Virus record (IMG/VR): IMGVR_UViG_3300043410_000935
Location: 1 to 25,452 of that record
Strand: one strand, 5' to 3'
Length of the DNA stretch: 25,452 nt
Source: a virus
In this document: in pieces, positions 4,154 to 24,000 of the stretch
Position numbering within the stretch: the first letter of the stretch is position 1
How the letters are laid out: each line of letters opens with the position of its first letter
Notes under the pieces: generated by a model
Database searches by the model: none
What the model was told of the DNA's origin: nothing
The model's input: the letters and a program-made list of their open reading frames with translations, nothing else
Position numbers and translations under genes: made by a program

Positions 4154-4381
4154 ATGAAGAATTTCATATTTTTAATAGTCATAACTATTTTGTTTATTGG
4201 TTGTAAACCTGTTAGATACGTAAATGTTAGTTCAAAACATAATTACTATGAAAAACATAGAACAACTACGTATACCGTCCCAACTTGGTTACCAAATGTA
4301 GGTATTGTTTTAGAAACTAGAGTATATCGTGGACATAGGTGGTCACAACCTAAACGAAGATATAAAAGACACAAAAAGTAA
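4154..4381 (+). CDS. Small lipoprotein
   Basis: I chose the second ATG (4154) over the one at 4139, because it gives a compact lipoprotein signal peptide, MKNFIFLIVITILFIGC, with lipobox LFIGC. The longer form would add MIFIN. The mature part is about 58 residues, begins CKPVRYVNV, is rich in Tyr, Thr and Arg and ends in a strongly basic tail (QPKRRYKRHKK). It should be lipid-anchored to the inner or outer membrane. The stop overlaps the start of the next gene (TAATG at 4379-4383), which suggests a partnership with the putative outer-membrane barrel. No family is recognised. A TATTTAT box at 4144-4150 lies 3 bp before the chosen start, as at other starts here. Confidence 0.75.
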   Translation: MKNFIFLIVITILFIGCKPVRYVNVSSKHNYYEKHRTTTYTVPTWLPNVGIVLETRVYRGHRWSQPKRRYKRHKK

Positions 4382-5862
4382 TGAAGAAATGGTTATTTGT
4401 TTTCTTTATTTTAGTGTCAATACTAATGTCCCAAGATGTTAGTGGTCAAGTAATTATGACTCAAACGTTTATTGATAAATGTTCGGGTGAGGTTAAAATT
4501 GCCACAACAACGTATGTAAATGGTAATGCGGTTGTTACATTCTACAATCAAATAAAAACATTCACACCGGCACAAGTTCAAAATGGTGAATTACAAACTT
4601 GGTTACAACAAACATATACAGCATATAATAGTACAGGTTGTCCTACAAATTTAGTAGTTCAACAAACAATTACACAACAAGTTGCCGCCGCGGCGACACA
4701 GGCAGCAAGTCAAGCGGCATCGGCAGCTGCAACCGCAGCAGCTAACGCCGCGGCAAGTGCTGCAAGTTCAAGTGCATCATCCGCAGCAAGTAACGCGGCA
4801 AGTTCGGCTGCCAGTTCTGCTGCAAGTAGTTCAGCATCCTCGGCCGCCAGTTCAAATGCGTCATCTGCGGCCAGTTCAAGTGCCGCAGCAAGTACACCAC
4901 CACCAAGCTCATCATCAAGTACACCACCGGCAAGTAGCAGTTCATCGTCTTCATCAAGTGGGGGTAGTTCTTCATCGAGTAGTGGTTCATCTTCATCGGA
5001 AAGTAAAACTGAAACAAAGACTGAAACTAAATCAGAAACAAAATCCGAGTCTAAATCAGAATCAAAATCTGAAAGTAAGAGTGAGGAAAAGAAAGAAGAA
5101 TCTAAATCAGAATCCAAAAAGGAAGAAAAGAAAGAAGAATCTAAAGAAGAAAAGAAAGAGGAGAAAAAGGAAGAAAAGAAAAAAGAAGAGAAAAAGAAAC
5201 AACAAAACATGAACCCAATGTTAATTGCTTCCGATATAACCACCGCAGAATCTCCTGACGGTAGTTATTCATTGGCAATGACTGTTGGTATCTCTAAATC
5301 ATCTCTAATGGGTGATAAATCATATAGTTTAAACGGTATGGCCTTTTCAACTTTAGATCAGTTTGCGATATCTTCGGGAGTCACTGTTATGAAATTAACA
5401 GATAAAGGTCAATTAAACTCAATCAATAGTTATTCATTCACATCAGCCTATTTAAAAGGTACGTTAATGAGTCTATTGGGTTACACTTGGATTAAACCAC
5501 ATCCTAAATTGGGTACCTATGGTTACAACGTTGGTTTAATCACATTATTAATGAAGGGGGAGGATTCTTATATGACAAGTCTATCAACGTCAACAGTTGC
5601 GTTTTGGACAAAACCATATCAATACAGTAAAAAATTAACAATATCTCCACAAGTATTTGCAATGTATTCACCAATTGGGTATAATACGTTAACAGGAGGA
5701 ACAACAGTAGGAAAACAATTTGGATTCCTATTAGGTAGTAGTATTGATTACAAGATTACAAAAAGGTTCGGATTCAGTTTCAACTATAAGTTAAATCTAA
5801 ATACCGAACCCGGTTCACCAATGCTTAGTAACTTCTTGATTGGATCAAGAGTTATGCTTTAA
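4381..5862 (+). CDS. Putative outer-membrane barrel protein with Ala/Ser and Glu/Lys low-complexity linker
   Basis: A 493-residue protein. A signal peptide (MKKWLFVFFILVSILMSQ, cleavage near DVSGQ) is followed by a compact domain up to about residue 95 (IMTQTFIDKCSGEVKIATTT). A roughly 115-residue Ala/Ser/Pro/Gly tract comes next, then a charged Glu/Lys/Ser tract to about residue 277. The C-terminal ~210 residues (from NPMLIASD) alternate polar and aromatic residues in strand-like stretches (GTYGYNVGLITLL, LTISPQVFAMYSP, FGFSFNYKLNLN), as in an outer-membrane beta barrel, ending FLIGSRVML. It is translationally coupled to the lipoprotein. A phage-encoded barrel could change the host surface, block superinfection or help lysis; alternatively it could be an adhesin-like virion protein. 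No family is recognised. Confidence 0.65.
   Translation: MKKWLFVFFILVSILMSQDVSGQVIMTQTFIDKCSGEVKIATTTYVNGNAVVTFYNQIKTFTPAQVQNGELQTWLQQTYTAYNSTGCPTNLVVQQTITQQVAAAATQAASQAASAAATAAANAAASAASSSASSAASNAASSAASSAASSSASSAASSNASSAASSSAAASTPPPSSSSSTPPASSSSSSSSSGGSSSSSSGSSSSESKTETKTETKSETKSESKSESKSESKSEEKKEESKSESKKEEKKEESKEEKKEEKKEEKKKEEKKKQQNMNPMLIASDITTAESPDGSYSLAMTVGISKSSLMGDKSYSLNGMAFSTLDQFAISSGVTVMKLTDKGQLNSINSYSFTSAYLKGTLMSLLGYTWIKPHPKLGTYGYNVGLITLLMKGEDSYMTSLSTSTVAFWTKPYQYSKKLTISPQVFAMYSPIGYNTLTGGTTVGKQFGFLLGSSIDYKITKRFGFSFNYKLNLNTEPGSPMLSNFLIGSRVML
4678..5205 (+). repeat. Low-complexity coding tract (Ala/Ser then Glu/Lys)
   Basis: Imperfect in-frame repetition of Ala and Ser codons (about 4678-5005), then Lys, Glu and Ser codons (about 5005-5205). 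Synonymous codons vary widely, so this is peptide-level low complexity and not a recent tandem expansion. It produces long open frames on other strands and frames that should not be read as genes. Confidence 0.8.
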
Positions 5863-9368: not shown

Positions 9369-11381
9369 CTATTTTTTTGAAATAGTTAGTTTTTCGTTAG
9401 CATATCTAATGACTGCAAGTTTACCTTCAACGATATTACCTTTCAAGATTTCCTCACTTAAGAAGTCCTCACATAAATTTTGGATAATACGTTTAAGTGG
9501 TCTCGCACCATATTCTTCTTGAACGTTAAGTTCGTGAATTCGTTCGATAATTGATTGGTCAAAAGTCACATTAAATCCTTTATCAATTAAACGATTGTTT
9601 AGTTTACCAAGTTCAATAAGAATGATTTTCTTCAATGTTTCAGTATCCAACGCATTAAATAAAACAATGTCATCAATACGATTTAAAAATTCAGGATTGA
9701 ATTGTTGTTTTAATGATTTTTGAATCATTGATTTACGAACTTCATATTGTTGTTGTTCACTGCTTGATGTTGAGAATCCAACACCTCCACCGAATTCGGA
9801 TACTTTCTTTGCTCCAACGTTTGAAGTCATAATAATCAAACAGTTAGTAAAGTTTACCTTACGTCCAAATGAATCGGTTAAATGTCCCTCATCTAATATT
9901 TGTAACAATAAATTGAACACGTCCTTATGTGCCTTTTCAATCTCATCAAATAAGATAACCGAGAATGGATTGTTTTTAACCTTTTCAGTCAATTGACCTC
10001 CCTCATCGTATCCAACATAACCTGGAGGAGAACCAATTAATTTAGATACGTTATGACGGTCCATAAATTCACTCATGTCAACACGAATAATTTTATCAGG
10101 ATCACCAAATAACATTTCCGCTAATGATTTTGCCAAGAATGTTTTACCAACACCCGTTGAACCTAAAAAGATAAACGAACCAATAGGTTTATTACTATCT
10201 TTAATACCTACACGATTACGTCTGATGGCTTTTGATATGGACGTAATTGCTTCGTCTTGACCAATTACCTTAAGTGAAAGATTTTCTTCCATTTTAAGTA
10301 ACTTCTGTGTCTCCTTATCGTCTAATTTACTGATAGGTACACCTGTCATTTGTGATACAATTTCGTACACATCATTAATTGATACGGGAGTTTTATTATC
10401 TTTTTGTTTTTCCGCCCATTTTGTTTTCTCTTTCTCAAGTTTGTCTAAAACTTTTTTCTCATCATCTCTTAATTTTGCTGCGTTTTCGTAATCTTGTTTT
10501 TTAACAACTAAAAGTTTTTGTTCTTTAATACTCTCAACTTCTAGTTTTAATTTCTCAATTGATTCAGGAATACGACTTGATACACGTTTTTCAGAACCCA
10601 ATTCATCAATCACATCGATTGCTTTATCAGGAAACTGTCTATCTGTAATATAACGTCCAGCCAATTTAACAATTGTTTCAATTACACCATCCTCATAAGT
10701 TACTTTATGGAAATCTTGATATGATGTTTGAAGATTCTTTAGAATTTCAACAGTTTCGGCTGCGGTTGGTTCGTTAAGTATGATTTTTTGGAAACGTCTA
10801 ACCAATGCCGCATCTTTTTCGATGTGTTTTTTAAACTCATCAAATGTTGTGGCACCAATACATTGTATTTCACCTCTTGCCAACGCAGGTTTTAGAATGT
10901 TTGCAGCATCCATCGCACCACTTGCGTTACCCGCACCAACCATAGTATGTAACTCATCAATGAATACAATCACATTTGGTGATTCTTGTAATTCATTTAA
11001 GATAGCTTTAATTCTTTCTTCGAATTGTCCACGGTATTTTGTACCGGCAACAAGTGAAGTTAAATCTAACGACATGATTCTCTTATCTAAAAGATTAGTA
11101 GGACAATCACCTTTAACAATCATTAATGCAAGTTTTTCAACGAGAGCCGATTTACCAACACCCGCATCACCTACAATAACCGCGTTATTTTTCTTTTTAC
11201 GTGATAGAATTTGTGCAATTCGTTTCACTTCTTTATCCCTGCCAACAACAGGGTCAATTTTACCATCTTCCGCAAGTTTAATGAGATCCCTTGAGAAGTT
11301 ATCTAAAATTGGTGTGGTTGAACCTTTCCGAGTTTTTTTCGGGTTAGTAACGGGTCCATCGTCAAAAAAGTCTACTGCCAT
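9369..11381 (-). CDS. clpC: ClpC-like AAA+ unfoldase lacking the N-domain
   Basis: A 670-residue protein with two AAA+ modules. D1: Walker A GDAGVGKS (71-78), Walker B VIVFIDE (137-143), pore motif KYRG (115-118) and RR at 195-196. A short helical insert has the UVR-like QDYENAAKLRDDE (296-308). D2: GSTGVGKT (407-414), SVILFDE (474-480), pore GYVG (454-457) and LNRID (566-570). A VGF tripeptide (534-536) after TSNVGA sits where ClpC/ClpA carry the ClpP-docking loop, so it may hand substrates to host ClpP. Host ClpC proteins are about 820-850 residues; the missing part is the ~150-residue adaptor-binding N-domain, replaced by a 45-residue leader. It lies divergent to Hsp20, with a Bacteroidota-type promoter. 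Confidence 0.88.
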   Translation of the reverse strand: MAVDFFDDGPVTNPKKTRKGSTTPILDNFSRDLIKLAEDGKIDPVVGRDKEVKRIAQILSRKKKNNAVIVGDAGVGKSALVEKLALMIVKGDCPTNLLDKRIMSLDLTSLVAGTKYRGQFEERIKAILNELQESPNVIVFIDELHTMVGAGNASGAMDAANILKPALARGEIQCIGATTFDEFKKHIEKDAALVRRFQKIILNEPTAAETVEILKNLQTSYQDFHKVTYEDGVIETIVKLAGRYITDRQFPDKAIDVIDELGSEKRVSSRIPESIEKLKLEVESIKEQKLLVVKKQDYENAAKLRDDEKKVLDKLEKEKTKWAEKQKDNKTPVSINDVYEIVSQMTGVPISKLDDKETQKLLKMEENLSLKVIGQDEAITSISKAIRRNRVGIKDSNKPIGSFIFLGSTGVGKTFLAKSLAEMLFGDPDKIIRVDMSEFMDRHNVSKLIGSPPGYVGYDEGGQLTEKVKNNPFSVILFDEIEKAHKDVFNLLLQILDEGHLTDSFGRKVNFTNCLIIMTSNVGAKKVSEFGGGVGFSTSSSEQQQYEVRKSMIQKSLKQQFNPEFLNRIDDIVLFNALDTETLKKIILIELGKLNNRLIDKGFNVTFDQSIIERIHELNVQEEYGARPLKRIIQNLCEDFLSEEILKGNIVEGKLAVIRYANEKLTISKK

Positions 11382-11538: not shown

Positions 11539-11907
11539 ATGATAACATTATTCAAAGACCCACTTTTCAACACTTTAGATAGAGTGTTTGACGATGCTTA
11601 TTTAAGAGCTGATAAAAAAACTAACATTACCAAAGAAGGAAATGATTATCATCTACAGATTTCGGTGCCAGGATTAACTAAAGATGATATTACCATTTCT
11701 TTAAAAGATAATGTAATGTCCATTTCATATGATAAAAGTGAAAAGAATAAAAATTTCACATTTACAAATTCATTTAAAAAATCATATGAATTACCTGATG
11801 ACGTTGATGAAAAACACATCACAGGAACAGTTGAAAACGGTATTCTTGAAATTGTAATACCTACGAGTAAACGAAAAACAACCGAACGTCTAATATCCCT
11901 AAATTAA
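11539..11907 (+). CDS. hsp20: Hsp20/alpha-crystallin small heat-shock protein
   Basis: A 122-residue holdase chaperone. The alpha-crystallin domain spans about residues 28-110: DYHLQISVPGLTKDDITISL near the start and the signature GTVENGILEIVIP near 94-106 (the family's G-x-L motif). The N-terminal arm is short (MITLFKDPLFNTLDRVFDDA). It lacks a clear C-terminal IxI anchor but has LISLN at the end. It would bind unfolding proteins in the cytoplasm. T4-like phages of marine bacteria often carry Hsp20. Here it is divergent from a Clp unfoldase, so holding and unfolding may be co-regulated through the ATGTC repeats. A terminator follows 4 bp after the stop. Confidence 0.93.
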   Translation: MITLFKDPLFNTLDRVFDDAYLRADKKTNITKEGNDYHLQISVPGLTKDDITISLKDNVMSISYDKSEKNKNFTFTNSFKKSYELPDDVDEKHITGTVENGILEIVIPTSKRKTTERLISLN

Positions 11908-13225: not shown

Positions 13226-13234
13226 GTATTTATA
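13226..13234 (+). promoter_or_regulatory. Candidate late promoter box GTATTTATA
   Basis: An exact GTATTTATA box 33 bp before the ATG at 13268, in the 70-bp gap that begins the gene run leading to terminase. Confidence 0.45.
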
Positions 13235-15469: not shown

Positions 15470-16797
15470 TGTTGATTTCCAAGAAAAAATTAATATCTTT
15501 GATTCAAGAAAACTTGAATGAGATGCCAATAGATTACGGAACCAACCCCGAAAGAATGAATCCTGATTTAGAAAGAAAATTAGGTAATAAAGAAACTCCG
15601 TACAAAGATAACCCCTCAATACCACAAGATGAACCAGAAGGTTTACCTTCAAATTTTGAGGAGGTAATTGCTTCAAAACGTTTTATTGACGTTGTAAATA
15701 AAGTAAAACACTATACTGGTCAACAAGGTAACGTAACAGATCATAACACATTTAGACAATTACAATTGTCTATGAATGGCGTTATGATGGAAGTTTTATC
15801 ATTTGAGGCTGAGAATAAAGAAATGTTAGAGCAATTGGCGGTTGAATTAGTTAAAAAAGAATTGGCAGTACCCGAAGGTGTTGTTCAATATGATGCTAAA
15901 TTAGTTGGTATTGGTCAAATAGATAATGAAGGATTTTCAAATCAATCAGAAAATCCAACTGATGAAGAAATCGAACAAGAATTTGGTGTTAATCCTGAAG
16001 AGGCAAGTGATGATGTTGAAGAATTTATGTCAGCAATAGAAATATTCAATGATGAAGTTGCCAAAAGAAAGGTAATGAACGCATTGATTCAAGGGTCATC
16101 TAAAAAAGGACACTATATGTTTGAATATGTTGCGGAAAGATTAACCGAACTTAAACCAAACATAGTTAGATTATATGGTATTTTAATGTCAGTTAACGAT
16201 ATGTTATATTGGTTAATACCAGATGAGATGATGTTAGGTGGTGGAGGTAACGAAACTAAAGCGGGTAAAGAAGAAATTGATATTGAAACAGAACCACCAA
16301 CAGTTAGAGCACGTGGAGTGTTTTTCCCTGTTTTAGTTCACGAATTAATTAAGGGTACGATGGAAATCATCGCAACTCAAGGTTTACCTGATGATAAAAG
16401 ACAGGCGGATATGGTTATGGGTGTAACAGACACATTACCAATGGAAATATGGGATTTAAGATTTGGACCAGTTATTTGGGAAAGATTAACAGCGGCATAT
16501 CCAAATAGATTATCTGAAGATAATTATAGACATATACACAATTACTTGTTCTCAAGAATTTCAAAATTATCAACTAAAGATTTTGCTAAATTGATGAATA
16601 TGGTAATTAAAGAAGATCCAAGAGCAAATCAAGTTATTGAAAAAATGGTTCAAGAAATTGAACAACATTTAAGAAAGGAAGATTGGGAAGAAGCCGAATA
16701 CGATATGGAGATGAATAATTATGACGATGATGGTGACGATGAAGATGATTTTGATGATTTCCTACGTTCTATGGGGATTGATAGACCACGAGATTAA
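15469..16797 (+). CDS. Unknown 442-residue protein directly before terminase
   Basis: A 442-residue acidic protein, mostly helical. It starts MLISKKKLISLIQENLNEM, an amphipathic leader ending in a possible I/L-x-E cleavage site. Two helical blocks follow, about 60-130 (FEEVIASKRFIDVVNKVKHY) and 175-275. A segment GVFFPVLVHELIKGTMEIIA (287-306) has HELIK rather than a metalloprotease HExxH. A C-terminal helical domain (309-410) ends in an Asp-rich tail (DDDGDDEDDFDDFL). It is last in its operon, with a terminator 4 bp after the stop and the terminase beyond. No family is recognised; a structural or packaging role is inferred only from position. It is too large for a typical T4 gp16. Confidence 0.6.
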   Translation: MLISKKKLISLIQENLNEMPIDYGTNPERMNPDLERKLGNKETPYKDNPSIPQDEPEGLPSNFEEVIASKRFIDVVNKVKHYTGQQGNVTDHNTFRQLQLSMNGVMMEVLSFEAENKEMLEQLAVELVKKELAVPEGVVQYDAKLVGIGQIDNEGFSNQSENPTDEEIEQEFGVNPEEASDDVEEFMSAIEIFNDEVAKRKVMNALIQGSSKKGHYMFEYVAERLTELKPNIVRLYGILMSVNDMLYWLIPDEMMLGGGGNETKAGKEEIDIETEPPTVRARGVFFPVLVHELIKGTMEIIATQGLPDDKRQADMVMGVTDTLPMEIWDLRFGPVIWERLTAAYPNRLSEDNYRHIHNYLFSRISKLSTKDFAKLMNMVIKEDPRANQVIEKMVQEIEQHLRKEDWEEAEYDMEMNNYDDDGDDEDDFDDFLRSMGIDRPRD

Positions 16798-16800
16798 TAT

Positions 16801-16825
16801 AAAGGGAGTTTAACTCCCTTTTTTT
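16801..16825 (+). terminator. Rho-independent terminator before terminase
   Basis: Stem AAAGGGAGT (16801-16809) and ACTCCCTTT (16813-16821) with a TTA loop and a following T run. It separates the upstream operon from the terminase gene. Confidence 0.9.
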
Positions 16826-16834
16826 GTATTTATA
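16826..16834 (+). promoter_or_regulatory. Candidate late promoter box GTATTTATA at terminase
   Basis: An exact GTATTTATA box directly after a terminator and 3 bp before the terminase ATG. If it is a -10-like element, transcription would start at or within the start codon. Confidence 0.5.
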
Positions 16835-16837
16835 TAT

Positions 16838-18655: not shown

Positions 18656-18664
18656 CTATTTATA
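18656..18664 (+). promoter_or_regulatory. Candidate late promoter box CTATTTATA at portal
   Basis: A CTATTTATA box 3 bp before the portal ATG, the same spacing as at the terminase gene. Confidence 0.45.
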
Positions 18665-18667
18665 TAC

Positions 18668-20497
18668 ATGGCAGTTCAAAATTTAACAGTCTTTCAAAAG
18701 TTAACAAGTATGTTTGGTTATCCTGGCAAAGTTACACAGGAAACCACACCGTCATTTAACTTCAGTAAAGACGAATTATTAAAAACAGATAATAGGGAAG
18801 AATTTGAAAAAGCAATGTTACAAGCTCAACAGAGCTCGTACATTTCCGACAAATGGGCTAAATTAGACCAATCTTTATATAATCAATCAGTTTATTATGA
18901 GCCAACAAGAATGGCCGCATATTATGATTATGAATCGATGGAATTTACACCTGAAATATCTGCAGCGTTAGACATATATGCGGAAGAATCCACAACAATG
19001 TCAGAAAAAGGTGAAATCCTTACAATTTATTCAGAGTCAGATAGAATTAAAAGTATACTTGAAGATTTGTTCCAAAACAAATTAGATATTAATACTAACC
19101 TACAAATGTGGGCAAGAGGTTTATGTAAGTATGGTGATGATTTTGTGTATTTAAAAATTGATCCTGAAAAAGGAGTAATCGGTTGTCAACAATTACCTAA
19201 TATCGAAATTGAAAGAATTGAAGGTGCGGCATCTAAAACACCTTCAGAATTAAAAGATGCTAAAGTACCTAGTCGTGAATTACGTTTCCAATGGAAAAAC
19301 AAGGATATGGAATTCCAAGCGTGGGAAATTGCTCACTTTAGATTATTAGGTGATGATAGAAAGTTACCGTATGGTACATCTATGTTAGATAAAATTAGAC
19401 GTATTTGGAAACAACTTTTACTTGCCGAAGATGCTATGTTAATTTACAGAACATCGAGAGCACCTGAAAGACGTGTATTTAAAATATTTGTGGGTAATAT
19501 GGACGATAAAGATATCGAACCATATGTACAAAAAGTGGCAAACAAGTTCAAAAGAGCACCTGTCGCTGACCCACGTAATGGACAAGTGGATATGAGATAT
19601 AATCAAATGGCGGTAGACCAAGATTATTTCATACCAGTTCGTGATCCGTCACAAGCAAACCCAATTGAAACTTTACCTGGTGCTGCAAATCTTGGTGAAA
19701 TTGCGGATATAGAATATATCCAAAAGAAAATGTTAGCGGCACTTCGTATTCCTAAAGCATTTTTAGGATTTGAGGAAGTTGTTGGTGATGGTAAGAATCT
19801 TGCATTAATGGATATTCGTTTCGCAAGAACAATCAATAAGATTCAAAAATCATTAATTCAAGAGTTAAACAAAGTTGCATTGATTCATTTGTACCTTTTA
19901 GGTATGGAGGATGATTTGAATAGTTTCTCTTTATCATTAACTAACCCGTCATCTCAATCTGATTTATTGAAGATTGAAATGTGGAAAGAAAAGATTACTC
20001 TATATAAAGATGCAACATCTGACCAATCACAAGTTGGTATTCTACCTGTATCACATACTTGGGCTAAAAAGAACATACTTGGATTCAGTGATAATGATGT
20101 ATTATTAGATTTACAACAACAACGTCTTGAAAGAGCAATGGGATTTGAGTTAACTAACACTCAAAATATTATTAAACGTTCAGGTGTATTTGATGAGGTT
20201 GATGGTAAGTACGGTATATCGGAAGATGAAAGACAAAAACTTGAGGCTGCAGGTGCATTAGGTGGGGAGGCCGGAGCAGAAGGTGGTGGAATGGATATGG
20301 GTGGAGGAATGGCACCTTCAGGTGGTGGAGAAGCTGGTGGAGAAGGACCATTAAGTGAATCTGTATCTAAAAAATCTAAAATATTAGGGATGTTAGGTGA
20401 CGATTCTTTATCAATTAATGATTTATTTGATATGGATAAGGCACAACGTAATATTTATGAAATAGAAACAAAAATAAAAGACATATTAAACGACTAA
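18668..20497 (+). CDS. 20: Portal protein (gp20-like)
   Basis: A 609-residue portal subunit (T4 gp20 is 524). Familiar T4-type segments include YYDYESMEFTPEISAALDIY (about 81-100), the wing part with WARGLCKYGDDFVYLKID, GTSMLDKIRRIWKQLLLAED with YRTSRAPERRVFKI (about 236-272), and the clip/stem region IQKKMLAALRIPKAFLGFEE (about 354-373). The extra length is mainly a C-terminal Gly-rich linker (about 530-565, GGGMDMGGGM) followed by SESVSKKSKILGMLGDD and a helical end. Twelve copies should form the dodecameric ring at one capsid vertex, where the terminase docks. The gene is 2 bp upstream of the 245-residue gene, so they are cotranscribed. Confidence 0.95.
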   Translation: MAVQNLTVFQKLTSMFGYPGKVTQETTPSFNFSKDELLKTDNREEFEKAMLQAQQSSYISDKWAKLDQSLYNQSVYYEPTRMAAYYDYESMEFTPEISAALDIYAEESTTMSEKGEILTIYSESDRIKSILEDLFQNKLDINTNLQMWARGLCKYGDDFVYLKIDPEKGVIGCQQLPNIEIERIEGAASKTPSELKDAKVPSRELRFQWKNKDMEFQAWEIAHFRLLGDDRKLPYGTSMLDKIRRIWKQLLLAEDAMLIYRTSRAPERRVFKIFVGNMDDKDIEPYVQKVANKFKRAPVADPRNGQVDMRYNQMAVDQDYFIPVRDPSQANPIETLPGAANLGEIADIEYIQKKMLAALRIPKAFLGFEEVVGDGKNLALMDIRFARTINKIQKSLIQELNKVALIHLYLLGMEDDLNSFSLSLTNPSSQSDLLKIEMWKEKITLYKDATSDQSQVGILPVSHTWAKKNILGFSDNDVLLDLQQQRLERAMGFELTNTQNIIKRSGVFDEVDGKYGISEDERQKLEAAGALGGEAGAEGGGMDMGGGMAPSGGGEAGGEGPLSESVSKKSKILGMLGDDSLSINDLFDMDKAQRNIYEIETKIKDILND

Positions 20498-20499
20498 CA

Positions 20500-21237
20500 A
20501 TGAACAAATTCGGGATATTAAAAACCAAAATGTTGACAAAATTAACTGAATCATACGCTAAAGAAAATAAAGCGGAGGTTAAAGATATATTGAACACAAT
20601 TAAAGAAAACAAAGATTTCAAAGAAATGTATTTGTTTTATGAAGAAATTGAGAACAAATATTTCGATGATAAAGAAACTGCTAAATTGTATGTAGAAGAA
20701 TTAAACACTATATTAAAATCAAAAGCAACAAACATATCAAAATTTTGTAAATCATTAGAAGAGAAGATTGGTGATGTACAAATCACTGAAAATGAATTAT
20801 ACTCAACATTAGATCAATTATCAGAAAACGACAATTTAAGTAACATTGACAAAAAAGTAATTGCAAAGAAAAAATTAGTAGAACATTTAATCACTAAAAA
20901 ACAAATTCAAGAATCTAAAGAAGAGACGTATACGTCAAATGAAAATCTTTTACATGCAGTTTTAGCAAACAATTTCAATGTATTATATAATAACTCATTA
21001 AATGAATCACAAAAAGAAACATTAAAAAATATTCTTTCTTTAAATGACAATGAGTTAGAAATTAAAACGAATGAATTAAAAGAATCAATTAATAGTCAGG
21101 TTGAAACTTTATTAAGTGAATCAACCGATAATGATTTCGCAACTAAATTATCACAAGTTAAAAGTGAGGTCGAACAAATGAAAACCTCCAAGTTTAATTA
21201 CTACAGATTAACAGAATTAAAAAATGGTCTTAATTAA
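20500..21237 (+). CDS. Unknown helical protein between portal and protease, possible prohead core component
   Basis: A 245-residue protein, rich in Lys, Glu, Asn and Leu, and almost entirely predicted helical (LTKLTESYAKENKAEVKDIL, LEEKIGDVQITENELYSTLD, ELKESINSQVETLLSES). No membrane span or catalytic motif. In T4 the small prohead core genes 67 and 68 lie between 20 and 21; by position and composition this is a plausible counterpart, but I see no sequence motif that proves it. L-x-E sequences near the N-terminus (KLTE) would suit cleavage by gp21. The last codons encode KNGLN and lie inside the palindromic terminator shared with the convergent bS21 gene. Confidence 0.65.
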   Translation: MNKFGILKTKMLTKLTESYAKENKAEVKDILNTIKENKDFKEMYLFYEEIENKYFDDKETAKLYVEELNTILKSKATNISKFCKSLEEKIGDVQITENELYSTLDQLSENDNLSNIDKKVIAKKKLVEHLITKKQIQESKEETYTSNENLLHAVLANNFNVLYNNSLNESQKETLKNILSLNDNELEIKTNELKESINSQVETLLSESTDNDFATKLSQVKSEVEQMKTSKFNYYRLTELKNGLN

Positions 21238-21248
21238 GACCATTTTTT
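21219..21248. terminator. Bidirectional palindromic terminator shared by convergent genes
   Basis: A 30-bp perfect palindrome, AAAAAATGGTCTTAA and its exact reverse complement. It has A and T tails on both sides, so it can end transcription from both strands. It contains both stop codons (21235-21237 on plus, 21230-21232 on minus). Confidence 0.88.
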
Positions 21249-21421
21249 ATTTGTTGTACATACACTGCTTTTAACTTCTCATGTCTCTTGGTGACCGAAG
21301 GTTTTACAAACTCCTGTCTTTCCCTCAATTTTTGAATCTGTTTAGTCTTTTGAACTTTACTCTTGTAAACTCTCAAGGCAGCCTCAATACTCTTTTCTTT
21401 GGTTACGTCTATGATTATCAT
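21230..21421 (-). CDS. rpsU: Ribosomal protein bS21, Bacteroidota-type
   Basis: A 63-residue basic protein with the bS21 pattern: MIIIDVTKEKSIEAALRVYK, then LRERQEFVKPSVTKRHEKLK near residues 32-51, close to the Bacteroidota form (LRKRQxFxKPSxxRR). In that phylum bS21, together with bS18 and bS6, helps sequester the anti-Shine-Dalgarno end of 16S rRNA. Viral bS21 genes are known in several phage groups. The gene lies reversed between the portal and prohead protease, has a TATATTTG -7 box 17 bp upstream, and shows no Shine-Dalgarno sequence (leader GGAATATAATTATAAATT). A phage copy could replace host bS21 on 30S subunits and bias initiation toward phage mRNA; that role is inference. Confidence 0.93.
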   Translation of the reverse strand: MIIIDVTKEKSIEAALRVYKSKVQKTKQIQKLRERQEFVKPSVTKRHEKLKAVYVQQIKNGLN

Positions 21422-21438
21422 AATTTATAATTATATTC

Positions 21439-21446
21439 CAAATATA
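21439..21446 (-). promoter_or_regulatory. Bacteroidota-type -7 box for rpsU
   Basis: On the minus strand TATATTTG matches TAnnTTTG exactly, 17 bp before the ATG, giving a leader of about 10 nt. No TTTG is found near -33, so the upstream element is weak or absent. Confidence 0.5.
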
Positions 21447-21524
21447 TAAAAATTTTTTGTTTTTATAAGTATTTTTTCGTATTATTTAAAAAACACCATA
21501 AAATAAATATAATATGAAGAATTA

Positions 21525-21950
21525 ATGAAAATTGGAAAGTATATTCCATTAGGAACGTACAACGAAGTAAAAATTGGTTATGGTACGGTAGATTTTAAAA
21601 ATCTAAAAACAATTTATTTAAAATTAAATGCGTGGGTTCAACCCGAGAATGAGACTGATGATTTTGATTATCTAATTTCAAAATCGAGAAGAAAAATAAA
21701 AGAATTAATTTATAATTTAAGAAACCCTTATTTTAGACAACAATGTATTGTTGATTTAGATATAAGAACTAAAGGTATAAAATTAGAAAAAAGGTCTTTT
21801 ATGAATTTAGAAGTTACATTATATGTTGATAAACAATTTGATGTGAAATCTAAAGAAGTAAAAACTGTGATAAAAGATATACTTGAAACCACAATCGATG
21901 AGGGTTTGGGTGACAAAAAATTATTCAATTTTTACAAAAGCAAGAAATAA
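21525..21950 (+). CDS. Unknown 141-residue protein in the head module
   Basis: A basic, soluble protein starting MKIGKYIPLGTYNEVKIGYG. It alternates strands (KTIYLKLNAWVQPEN, RSFMNLEVTLYVDKQFDVKS) with helices (SKSRRKIKELIYNLRN, KEVKTVIKDILETTIDE), suggesting a compact alpha/beta fold. An earlier ATG at 21513 hits a stop after two codons, so 21525 is the start. The 38 bp after the stop hold the candidate late box for gene 21. It lies between the reversed bS21 gene and the prohead protease. No family is recognised and its role in head assembly is unproven. Confidence 0.65.
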   Translation: MKIGKYIPLGTYNEVKIGYGTVDFKNLKTIYLKLNAWVQPENETDDFDYLISKSRRKIKELIYNLRNPYFRQQCIVDLDIRTKGIKLEKRSFMNLEVTLYVDKQFDVKSKEVKTVIKDILETTIDEGLGDKKLFNFYKSKK

Positions 21951-21963
21951 CCTTGATATTGAT

Positions 21964-21972
21964 GTATTTATA
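21964..21972 (+). promoter_or_regulatory. Candidate late promoter box GTATTTATA at prohead protease
   Basis: An exact GTATTTATA box 16 bp before the ATG at 21989, in the 38-bp gap after the 141-residue gene. Confidence 0.5.
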
Positions 21973-21988
21973 GTAATAAAATCTATAA

Positions 21989-22672
21989 ATGAAGATATTA
22001 GGACCAAACGAAACGGGAAAAGGAATATTAATCGAATACGACGCAGGACACGTATCTCCCGAAGACAATAAAAAAATCATATCGGAAATGAAGAATATGG
22101 ACTTCTCTGAAGACCTTATTCTTTATGCCGTTTTACAAAAATTCGACACTCCAAATAAGAACGGAAGAATCTATCCTGAATTATTACTTAAGAGAGAAAA
22201 CGAAAAATATCAAACACTTATTAATAAGGGTAGTGCTTTAAATGAATTAAATCACCCTTCATCATCACTTATCGATTTAGATAGAGTATCACATTCTATT
22301 TTAGAGACATGGTGGGATGGTAAAATGTTAATGGGTAAAATTAAATTATTCACATCACCAGGTTGGAAGAAAATGGGTATCGTTTCTACGAAAGGAGACC
22401 AAGCGGCTATGTTAATTATGAACGGAGCAACTTTAGGTATATCTTCTCGTGGAGTAGGATCATTAAAAAACGTTAAAGGTCAAAACATTGTACAAGAGGA
22501 CTTTGAGTTGGTTTGTTTCGATTTAGTATCCTCACCATCAACTCCAGGTGCTTACATTTTTTCTGATCCATCAGAGAGAGACCAATACCAAGAATCGATT
22601 GAGGAGAAGCCTGAATTAGATAGTAGAATGAAAAAGTTAATGGGCGGATTAGACAGATTTTTATCAAAATAA
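21989..22672 (+). CDS. 21: Prohead core protease (gp21-like, serine protease)
   Basis: A 227-residue maturation protease (T4 gp21 is 212). The catalytic elements of the fold shared with herpesvirus assemblins are visible: the histidine in ALNELNHPSSSLID (H89) and the serine in GATLGISSRGVGS (S152/S153), followed by EDFELVCFDLVSSPSTPGAY. A segment YAVLQKFDTPNKNGRIYP (46-63) is typical of T4-type homologues. It is packed in the prohead core and on activation cleaves the scaffold, capsid propeptides and itself, mostly after (I/L)-x-E. The gene precedes the scaffold and capsid genes, as in T4. Its candidate late promoter lies 16 bp upstream. Confidence 0.93.
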   Translation: MKILGPNETGKGILIEYDAGHVSPEDNKKIISEMKNMDFSEDLILYAVLQKFDTPNKNGRIYPELLLKRENEKYQTLINKGSALNELNHPSSSLIDLDRVSHSILETWWDGKMLMGKIKLFTSPGWKKMGIVSTKGDQAAMLIMNGATLGISSRGVGSLKNVKGQNIVQEDFELVCFDLVSSPSTPGAYIFSDPSERDQYQESIEEKPELDSRMKKLMGGLDRFLSK

Positions 22673-22725: not shown

Positions 22726-22734
22726 GTATTTATA
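22726..22734 (+). promoter_or_regulatory. Candidate late promoter box GTATTTATA at scaffold gene
   Basis: An exact GTATTTATA box 24 bp before the ATG at 22759, in an 86-bp gap with no other structure. Confidence 0.5.
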
Positions 22735-22758: not shown

Positions 22759-24000
22759 ATGACTGAAAAATCAATTTTAGAACAAGCGTTACTTCAAGTA
22801 CAAACTCTTGAAGAAGCTGTAAAGCAAAATGCAAAAGGTATACTTGCTTCAACTATGAAACAAGAACTAAATGACTTGCTTAAAGAATCATTGGAAGAAG
22901 AGGAAGAAACTAAAGATGAAGAGGTTGACGAGCAACCCGAAACTGAAGTAAATCCTGAAGAAGAGGAAGACGATATGTCAGATACAGACACTGAAGAAGT
23001 GGATGATACTGAAAATGACACAAACCTCGATAACGTTGACCCTGAAGCAGGTAACGACTCAATCGAAACAGATAGTGCTGATGCTCCTGAATTACCAGAT
23101 TTTGGTGGTGGAGATGACGCAATTGAAGATGAAGATGACGTTATGGACATGACAGGTGCGTCTGATGAAGATGTACTTAAAATCTTTAAAGCGATGAAAC
23201 CAGAAGATGGTATTGTTGTTAAAAAAGATGGAGACAATGTCGAACTTGATTTAGACGGCGACGAATATATCATCAAATTAGATGGTGAAGGTAATGACAC
23301 TCCTGAATTCGAATCAGAAATGGGAGAACCGGATTTAGATAACATGGGTGGTCCATCAGATTTTGATGCAGACAACGCAGGTTCAGATATGTCAGGTTTA
23401 GGAGATTCTGAAGAAGAGGAAGAAGAAACACTTTACGAAATCGAATTAGGTGACGAAGAGGAAGAGGAAATGGCAGAAGAAGATGCAAAAGAAGTTGAAA
23501 CAACTGAAGCTGCAAGAACAAAGTCTAATCCTCACGGAAACAAAGGTGGTTTCAATAGAGCAGGATTACCAAGTAAGAAAACTTACAAGGCGGGTTCTGG
23601 TGTAGTTGGAATCAACGAAGAAGTTGAAACATTAAAGAAACAAAATGCTGAATATAAGAAAGCGTTAGTTTTATTTAAAGATAAACTTAACGAAGTTGCT
23701 GTGTTTAACGCAAACTTAGCTTACGCTACACGTTTATTCACAGAACATTCGACAACAAAACAAGAGAAATTGAATATCCTTAAGAGATTTGACACAGTGG
23801 CAACATTGACTGAATCTAAAAGTTTATTCAACTCAATTAAATCTGAATTAGGTACAAAAACTACAGTTACTGAATCAGTTGTTGAGAAAATCTCTAACAC
23901 TCCATCAACATCATCATCTCAAGAAGTATTGGCTGAAGCGAAAGCTTACGAAAATCCACAATTCAAGAGAATGAAAGATTTGATGAGTAAAATGAAATAA
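22759..24000 (+). CDS. 22: Prohead core scaffold protein (gp22-like)
   Basis: A 413-residue acidic protein (T4 gp22 is 269). The N-terminus (ILEQALLQVQTLEEAVKQNA) is helical and followed by a long Glu/Asp-rich disordered region. Near residues 130-180 is a more ordered acidic part (DVLKIFKAMKPEDGIVVKKD and VELDLDGDEYIIKLDGE), and then more acidic linker. The C-terminal third is coiled coil: EEVETLKKQNAEYKKALVLF, NEVAVFNANLAYATRLFTEH and QEKLNILKRFDTVATLTESK, a conserved stretch of T4-type scaffolds. It forms the inner core around which the capsid assembles and is then degraded by gp21. The extra ~140 residues lie mainly in the acidic insert. It is followed directly by the capsid gene, with an A-rich leader and no clear box between. 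Confidence 0.9.
   Translation: MTEKSILEQALLQVQTLEEAVKQNAKGILASTMKQELNDLLKESLEEEEETKDEEVDEQPETEVNPEEEEDDMSDTDTEEVDDTENDTNLDNVDPEAGNDSIETDSADAPELPDFGGGDDAIEDEDDVMDMTGASDEDVLKIFKAMKPEDGIVVKKDGDNVELDLDGDEYIIKLDGEGNDTPEFESEMGEPDLDNMGGPSDFDADNAGSDMSGLGDSEEEEEETLYEIELGDEEEEEMAEEDAKEVETTEAARTKSNPHGNKGGFNRAGLPSKKTYKAGSGVVGINEEVETLKKQNAEYKKALVLFKDKLNEVAVFNANLAYATRLFTEHSTTKQEKLNILKRFDTVATLTESKSLFNSIKSELGTKTTVTESVVEKISNTPSTSSSQEVLAEAKAYENPQFKRMKDLMSKMK

Follow-up and report, generated by a model that had tools for sequence, protein, structure and literature searches.

A Bacteroidia-type bS21 gene reversed within a phage head module, with a probable late promoter of its own and a probable terminator shared with its convergent neighbour

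In the Bacteroidetes myophages described by Chen et al. (2022; PMC9723584), which comprise clades a to e, bS21 is encoded on the reverse strand, between conserved hypothetical genes, in the region of terL, portal, protease, and MCP. The encoded proteins retain an aromatic residue 54 and form their own group of phage bS21. Metatranscriptomes in that study indicated that bS21 is transcribed late in situ with the structural genes, not as one operon, and packaging of phage bS21 was raised as a possibility; the paper contains no promoter, terminator, palindrome, stop-overlap, or Shine-Dalgarno (SD) analysis. SD-dependent autoregulation of rpsU was shown in F. johnsoniae by McNutt et al. (2023; PMC9976891), who also speculated on phage bS21. 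Mizuno et al. (2019; PMC6375957), working with an E. coli system, showed that the bS21 of pelagiphage HTVC008M enters 70S ribosomes; the E. coli ribosomes carrying it translated poorly, translation being almost abolished, so incorporation of a phage bS21 need not aid translation.

The stretch of DNA analysed here, called the window, comprises 25,452 nt (IMG/VR record IMGVR_UViG_3300043410_000935); this 25-kb virus fragment is the entire record and does not belong to a larger genome. The ORF at positions 21230 to 21421 on the minus strand starts with ATG and encodes a protein of 63 aa (MIIIDVTKEKSIEAALRVYKSKVQKTKQIQKLRERQEFVKPSVTKRHEKLKAVYVQQIKNGLN) with the C-terminal tail KNGLN. The protein matched the Pfam domain Ribosomal_S21 (PF01165) over residues 4 to 56 with 45.7 bits (E = 5.5e-12), above the curated cut-off of 27 bits and across the whole domain, and its PHROG match was ribosomal protein S21. 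The reversed bS21 gene reported in the initial annotation is thus confirmed as a genuine gene, and a median dN/dS of 0.11 among 44 distinct full-length copies indicates that it is maintained. Its assignment to the Bacteroidota type is also supported: in proteins of this type residue 54 is aromatic and contacts A1534 of 16S rRNA by stacking, and the window protein has the anti-SD-blocking residue Tyr54. Residue 54 is aromatic in all 34 proteins of the window's clade and in all 29 proteins of other phages in which bS21 converges with its neighbour as it does here (the convergent layout); arginine is found at this position in 31 of 32 "other" host bS21 proteins. The nearest solved structures are that of F. 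johnsoniae (7jil) and chain 9i5v_9, and Flavobacterium bS21 is ~44% identical to the phage protein.

As initially read, bS21 interrupts the portal-to-protease interval on the opposite strand: its flanks are a T4 gp20-type portal gene (positions 18668 to 20497, plus strand) and a T4 gp21-type prohead core protease gene (21989 to 22672, plus strand; S77). The gene is reversed within a terL-portal-protease-MCP block, which is the layout of Chen et al. (2022), and the general finding of a reversed phage bS21 among head genes was already published in that year. This placement, together with an N-terminal region that diverges from host bS21, could indicate that, instead of acting in ribosomes during infection, the protein is packaged or has an extraribosomal function. 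However, the ribosome-contact features (Tyr54 and the KPSV core) are under purifying selection, and the bS21 of a different phage enters 70S ribosomes (PMC6375957); we regard the extraribosomal explanation as highly improbable and favour a ribosomal role.

The immediate neighbours of bS21 are both encoded on the plus strand. The convergent gene (positions 20500 to 21237; 245 aa) gave an all-helical model and had no family match; it has no promoter motif of its own and is therefore probably read with the portal gene. The divergent gene (21525 to 21950; 141 aa) gave a confident alpha/beta model. No solved relative of either model was found with Foldseek against the PDB (E ≤ 0.001), and the BFVD matches were uncharacterised phage proteins only; because the models gave no solved relative, gene order alone suggests a T4 gp67/68-like core role for these neighbours. 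Before the divergent gene, which has no late motif, the block CACCATAA (21494 to 21501, plus strand) is kept in the clade, with CACCATTA in L081, and is perhaps another type of promoter. A candidate conserved 3-codon mini-ORF before the same gene was dropped because its frame is not maintained in L003, L025, and L037. Elsewhere in the window, the vicinity of the head module contains genes for a Clp-type AAA+ chaperone (9369 to 11381, minus strand) and HSP20 (11539 to 11907, plus strand), an association already reported for other bS21 phages. The product of the gene at 4381 to 5862 (plus strand) has long low-complexity stretches of Ser/Ala and Lys/Glu, a composition that accounts for the long antisense ORF over it.

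Relatives of bS21 were encoded at 280 IMG/VR loci, 80 of which were kept, and additional scans that used host-type queries brought in more distant phages. When phage records were searched for closely related isolates, only distant uncultured phages were returned. The convergent layout extends far outside the window's clade, and stop overlaps of 4, 6, 8, or 9 bp are common. Comparison with host copies by phylogeny, proposed in the initial annotation, did not bear out a closeness to the sampled host bS21: in a tree of 168 proteins, built on only 64 columns, the convergent-layout copies were placed in a phage-dominated clade (98/94) separate from canonical host bS21. The junction of this clade with Bacteroidia was weak (91/57), as were the deeper joins with so few columns. 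Recent capture of the gene from a host is unsupported because the best host identities are ~44 to 52% and the tree separates phage from host. Some additional host copies (L141, L143, and L144, from genomes G163 and G157) were located inside the phage-dominated clade with weak support and on long branches; phage-to-host transfer or prophage remnants are possible explanations for them.

The initial annotation assigned bS21 a host-type (Bacteroidota) -7 box. This box, TATATTTG, is present at positions 21439 to 21446 on the minus strand, 17 nt before the bS21 ATG, and is found at 17 to 18 nt in 26 of 39 distinct upstream regions of the clade (0.2 expected); by itself it is not significant in the AT-rich window (5 copies versus 2.7 expected). 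Its conservation is confined to the window's clade, and it occurs in none of the 29 distinct upstream regions of other convergent-layout phages. Since these phages of the same layout lack it, TATATTTG was rejected as the sole bS21 promoter, and it is probably not the main one.

Closer to the gene, at positions 21426 to 21433 on the minus strand and 4 nt before the ATG, lies the late-promoter-like motif TAATTATA, which matches TATTTATA at 7 of 8 positions and is one change away from the consensus (TA[T/C/A]TTATA in the family). The sequence TA[TCA]TTAT is present in 36 of the 39 clade upstream regions (9.6 expected), at 4 to 6 nt before the ATG in 35 of these, and a late-type motif was found within 45 nt of bS21 in 19 of 29 more distant layouts. 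The same type of motif precedes the plus-strand head genes of the window: (i) TATTTATA at 18657 to 18664, 3 nt before the portal ATG; (ii) GTATTTATA at 16826 to 16834, 3 nt before the terL ATG and directly after a terminator-like hairpin; (iii) GTATTTATA at 21964 to 21972, 16 nt before the prohead protease ATG; and (iv) GTATTTATA at 22726 to 22734, 24 nt before the gene at 22759 to 24000, which has a scaffold-like position. Among distinct upstream regions, TATTTATA was found for terL in 29 of 31 and for the portal gene in 32 of 33 (both 3 to 6 nt before the ATG) and for the protease gene in 30 of 32 and the scaffold-position gene in 27 of 41 (13 to 27 nt before the ATG); it was found before neither the convergent gene (0/36) nor the divergent gene (0/35). 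In total, 65 of 201 unique upstream regions contained GTATTTATA, compared with 1.1 in shuffles, and its reverse complement was not enriched. The octamer is thus conserved before late genes and specific in both strand and position, as expected of a late promoter. Besides the four window sites above (16826, 18657, 21964, and 22726), strand-specific motifs of the TATTTATA type were noted at window position 13226 and in six large relatives, and the order of hairpin with T-run followed by the terL motif (window positions 16790 to 16837) is the same in relatives.

T4 late promoters consist of a short A/T octamer, TATAAATA, and depend on the gp55 sigma factor. All six large relatives encode a divergent sigma factor of ~230 to 240 aa, and for the one examined the PHROG "late sigma transcription factor" family gave a match at 2.3e-4; G207 and G208, two of these relatives, also have a second, clear sigma-70-type factor. 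Given these gp55-like factors and the T4-like motif 4 to 6 nt before the ATG, a nearly leaderless mRNA is predicted for bS21: if the octamer acts as the T4 -10 element does, we infer a start at or within 1 to 2 nt of the ATG. The late-promoter-like motif, and not the host-type box, is probably the main bS21 promoter, although TATTTATA could instead be an activator site or a translation element. Nothing relevant was found in the literature on TATTTATA or on leaderless late promoters in Bacteroidota phages. Alternatively, the host sigma factor could drive bS21 through TATATTTG from early infection, with the downstream ATATACTTATA a mere conserved leader, which would account for the nonrandom occurrence of the box at its fixed distance in the clade. 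This explanation appears unlikely, as the box is missing not only from the other convergent-layout phages but also from clade members with an exact TATTTATA (L027, L055, L062, and L075), and as bS21 is expressed in situ with structural genes (PMC9723584); the same metatranscriptomes support late timing for the gene. Both promoters could also operate, host sigma first and late sigma later.

The SD was scored by the length of the longest match to the extended SD in the vicinity of the start codon, with a threshold of at least 6 nt. No such run precedes bS21 in the window or in its relatives (0 of 82 distinct phage upstream regions), compared with 40 of 48 canonical Bacteroidia rpsU genes; eight clade members have SD-like runs of 5 nt, but these read GTGAT instead of the core GGAGG. 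The part of the initial annotation that described an SD-less copy was thus upheld, and such a gene offers no hook for SD-dependent rpsU autoregulation. However, SD-less bS21 genes are not peculiar to phages, because many Flavobacteriaceae have a second bS21 paralog without the extended SD (e.g., L139, L145, and L147), and their presence in the hosts themselves calls for caution. The second paralog begins MLKIIVKDGENIERALKRYKRKHRN and was also seen, without the extended SD of the canonical copy, in L149, L151, L153, and L155; host ribosome heterogeneity is a possible consequence.

The bS21 gene and the convergent gene overlap by 8 bp at their stops, inside the perfect palindrome TAAAAAATGGTCTTAATTAAGACCATTTTTTA (positions 21218 to 21249, both strands), which encodes KNGLN-stop on each strand; both proteins end in KNGLN because both genes end inside it. 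The predicted fold has an energy of -15.5 kcal/mol on one strand and -19 kcal/mol on the other, with z about -5.7. The stem of 14 pairs contains only 3 G-C pairs, and the U-run is partly in the stem, whereas a textbook terminator has a G+C-rich stem followed by a U-run. Over 34 distinct relatives, pairing is retained at 99.8%. Two pairs have changed on both sides, giving 11 cells compared with 1.9 in shuffles and 0 when slid, a count that overstates the number of events because the 34 relatives are not independent. Both double changes are at third codon positions and silent on both strands, and their four combinations (TGGT, CGGT, CGGA, and TGGA) all occur. This covariation supports a structure at the palindrome, which is probably a shared bidirectional terminator. 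Large antisense effects, considered possible in the initial annotation, would then be unlikely, since both convergent transcripts should stop at the shared palindrome and the expected antisense overlap is short.

A palindrome this perfect, with arms encoding identical peptides, might instead serve to stabilise RNA ends, or it might be an inverted duplication whose arms are held to the same sequence by gene conversion or template switching. In phages outside the clade, an LKxGL-like end is retained in the convergent protein, but the bS21 tails vary and TAAAAAATGGTCTTAATTAAGACCATTTTTTA is absent, and for these reasons the bS21 tail and the palindrome probably arose via inverted copying of the neighbour's 3' end. 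Nevertheless, the palindrome is positioned between convergent stops; unrelated symmetric hairpins with U-runs occupy the equivalent place between the two genes in more distant phages (L261, L273, L286, and L299); and bS21 Leu62 is encoded by CTT in 40 of 44 copies, whereas TTA or TTG predominates at Leu 16, 32, and 50. A role other than termination consequently has a low probability, and termination is the preferred reading.

We consider it fairly probable, taking the explanation as a whole, that this is a Bacteroidia-type phage bS21 expressed with the structural genes through a late promoter, an SD-less mRNA, and a shared terminator and that it replaces host bS21. Judging from the position and conservation of the motif, bS21 would have a phage late promoter to itself, TA[T/C/A]TTATA, used by a gp55-like late sigma, and with the promoter so close to the ATG the message would have almost no leader. 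As this mRNA has no extended SD, through which Bacteroidia ribosomes restrain host rpsU, synthesis of the phage protein would presumably continue even once ribosomes are saturated with bS21. Transcription would end at the covarying palindrome held in common with the convergent portal-side unit, preventing collision of the opposed units. On the evidence of residue conservation and of published work on other phage bS21 proteins, the phage protein may then replace host bS21 on the 30S platform, where Tyr54 would keep the anti-SD blocked and SD-less late mRNAs would be favoured. A further step, a specialised late ribosome in which near-leaderless late mRNAs (terL, portal, and bS21) made with the gp55-like sigma are preferentially translated by 30S subunits carrying a phage bS21 whose synthesis escapes host SD feedback, is conceivable but quite doubtful. 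The initial annotation was right in outline and its main parts were already published, with the promoter and antisense points corrected here. It has been speculated in print that Bacteroidetes ribosomes are redirected by phage bS21 in late infection; the features described here give this idea a specific form that can be tested at the sequence level, namely, a late promoter, a shared terminator, and between them a message that is near-leaderless, SD-less, and beyond host feedback.

The window resembles the myophages of Chen et al. (2022) in the reverse bS21 layout, Tyr54, the separate phage bS21 group, late transcription (predicted for the window), and nearby Clp/chaperone genes; the promoter, terminator, stop-overlap, and SD features are added here. 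The F. johnsoniae rpsU product (PMC9976891; ribosome 7JIL) belongs to the same protein family and has the same anti-SD-occluding Tyr54, but the host gene is autoregulated and carries an extended SD, whereas the phage gene, located in a late module, has no extended SD. A bS21 is likewise encoded by Pelagibacter phage HTVC008M, but of alphaproteobacterial type and in a phage of an alphaproteobacterial host. As in T4, a short A/T octamer precedes late head genes, and a gp55-like sigma is encoded in the relatives; in place of the T4 octamer TATAAATA, however, the motif here is TATTTATA, and its position 3 to 6 nt before the ATG of terL, portal, and bS21 implies near-leaderless mRNAs.
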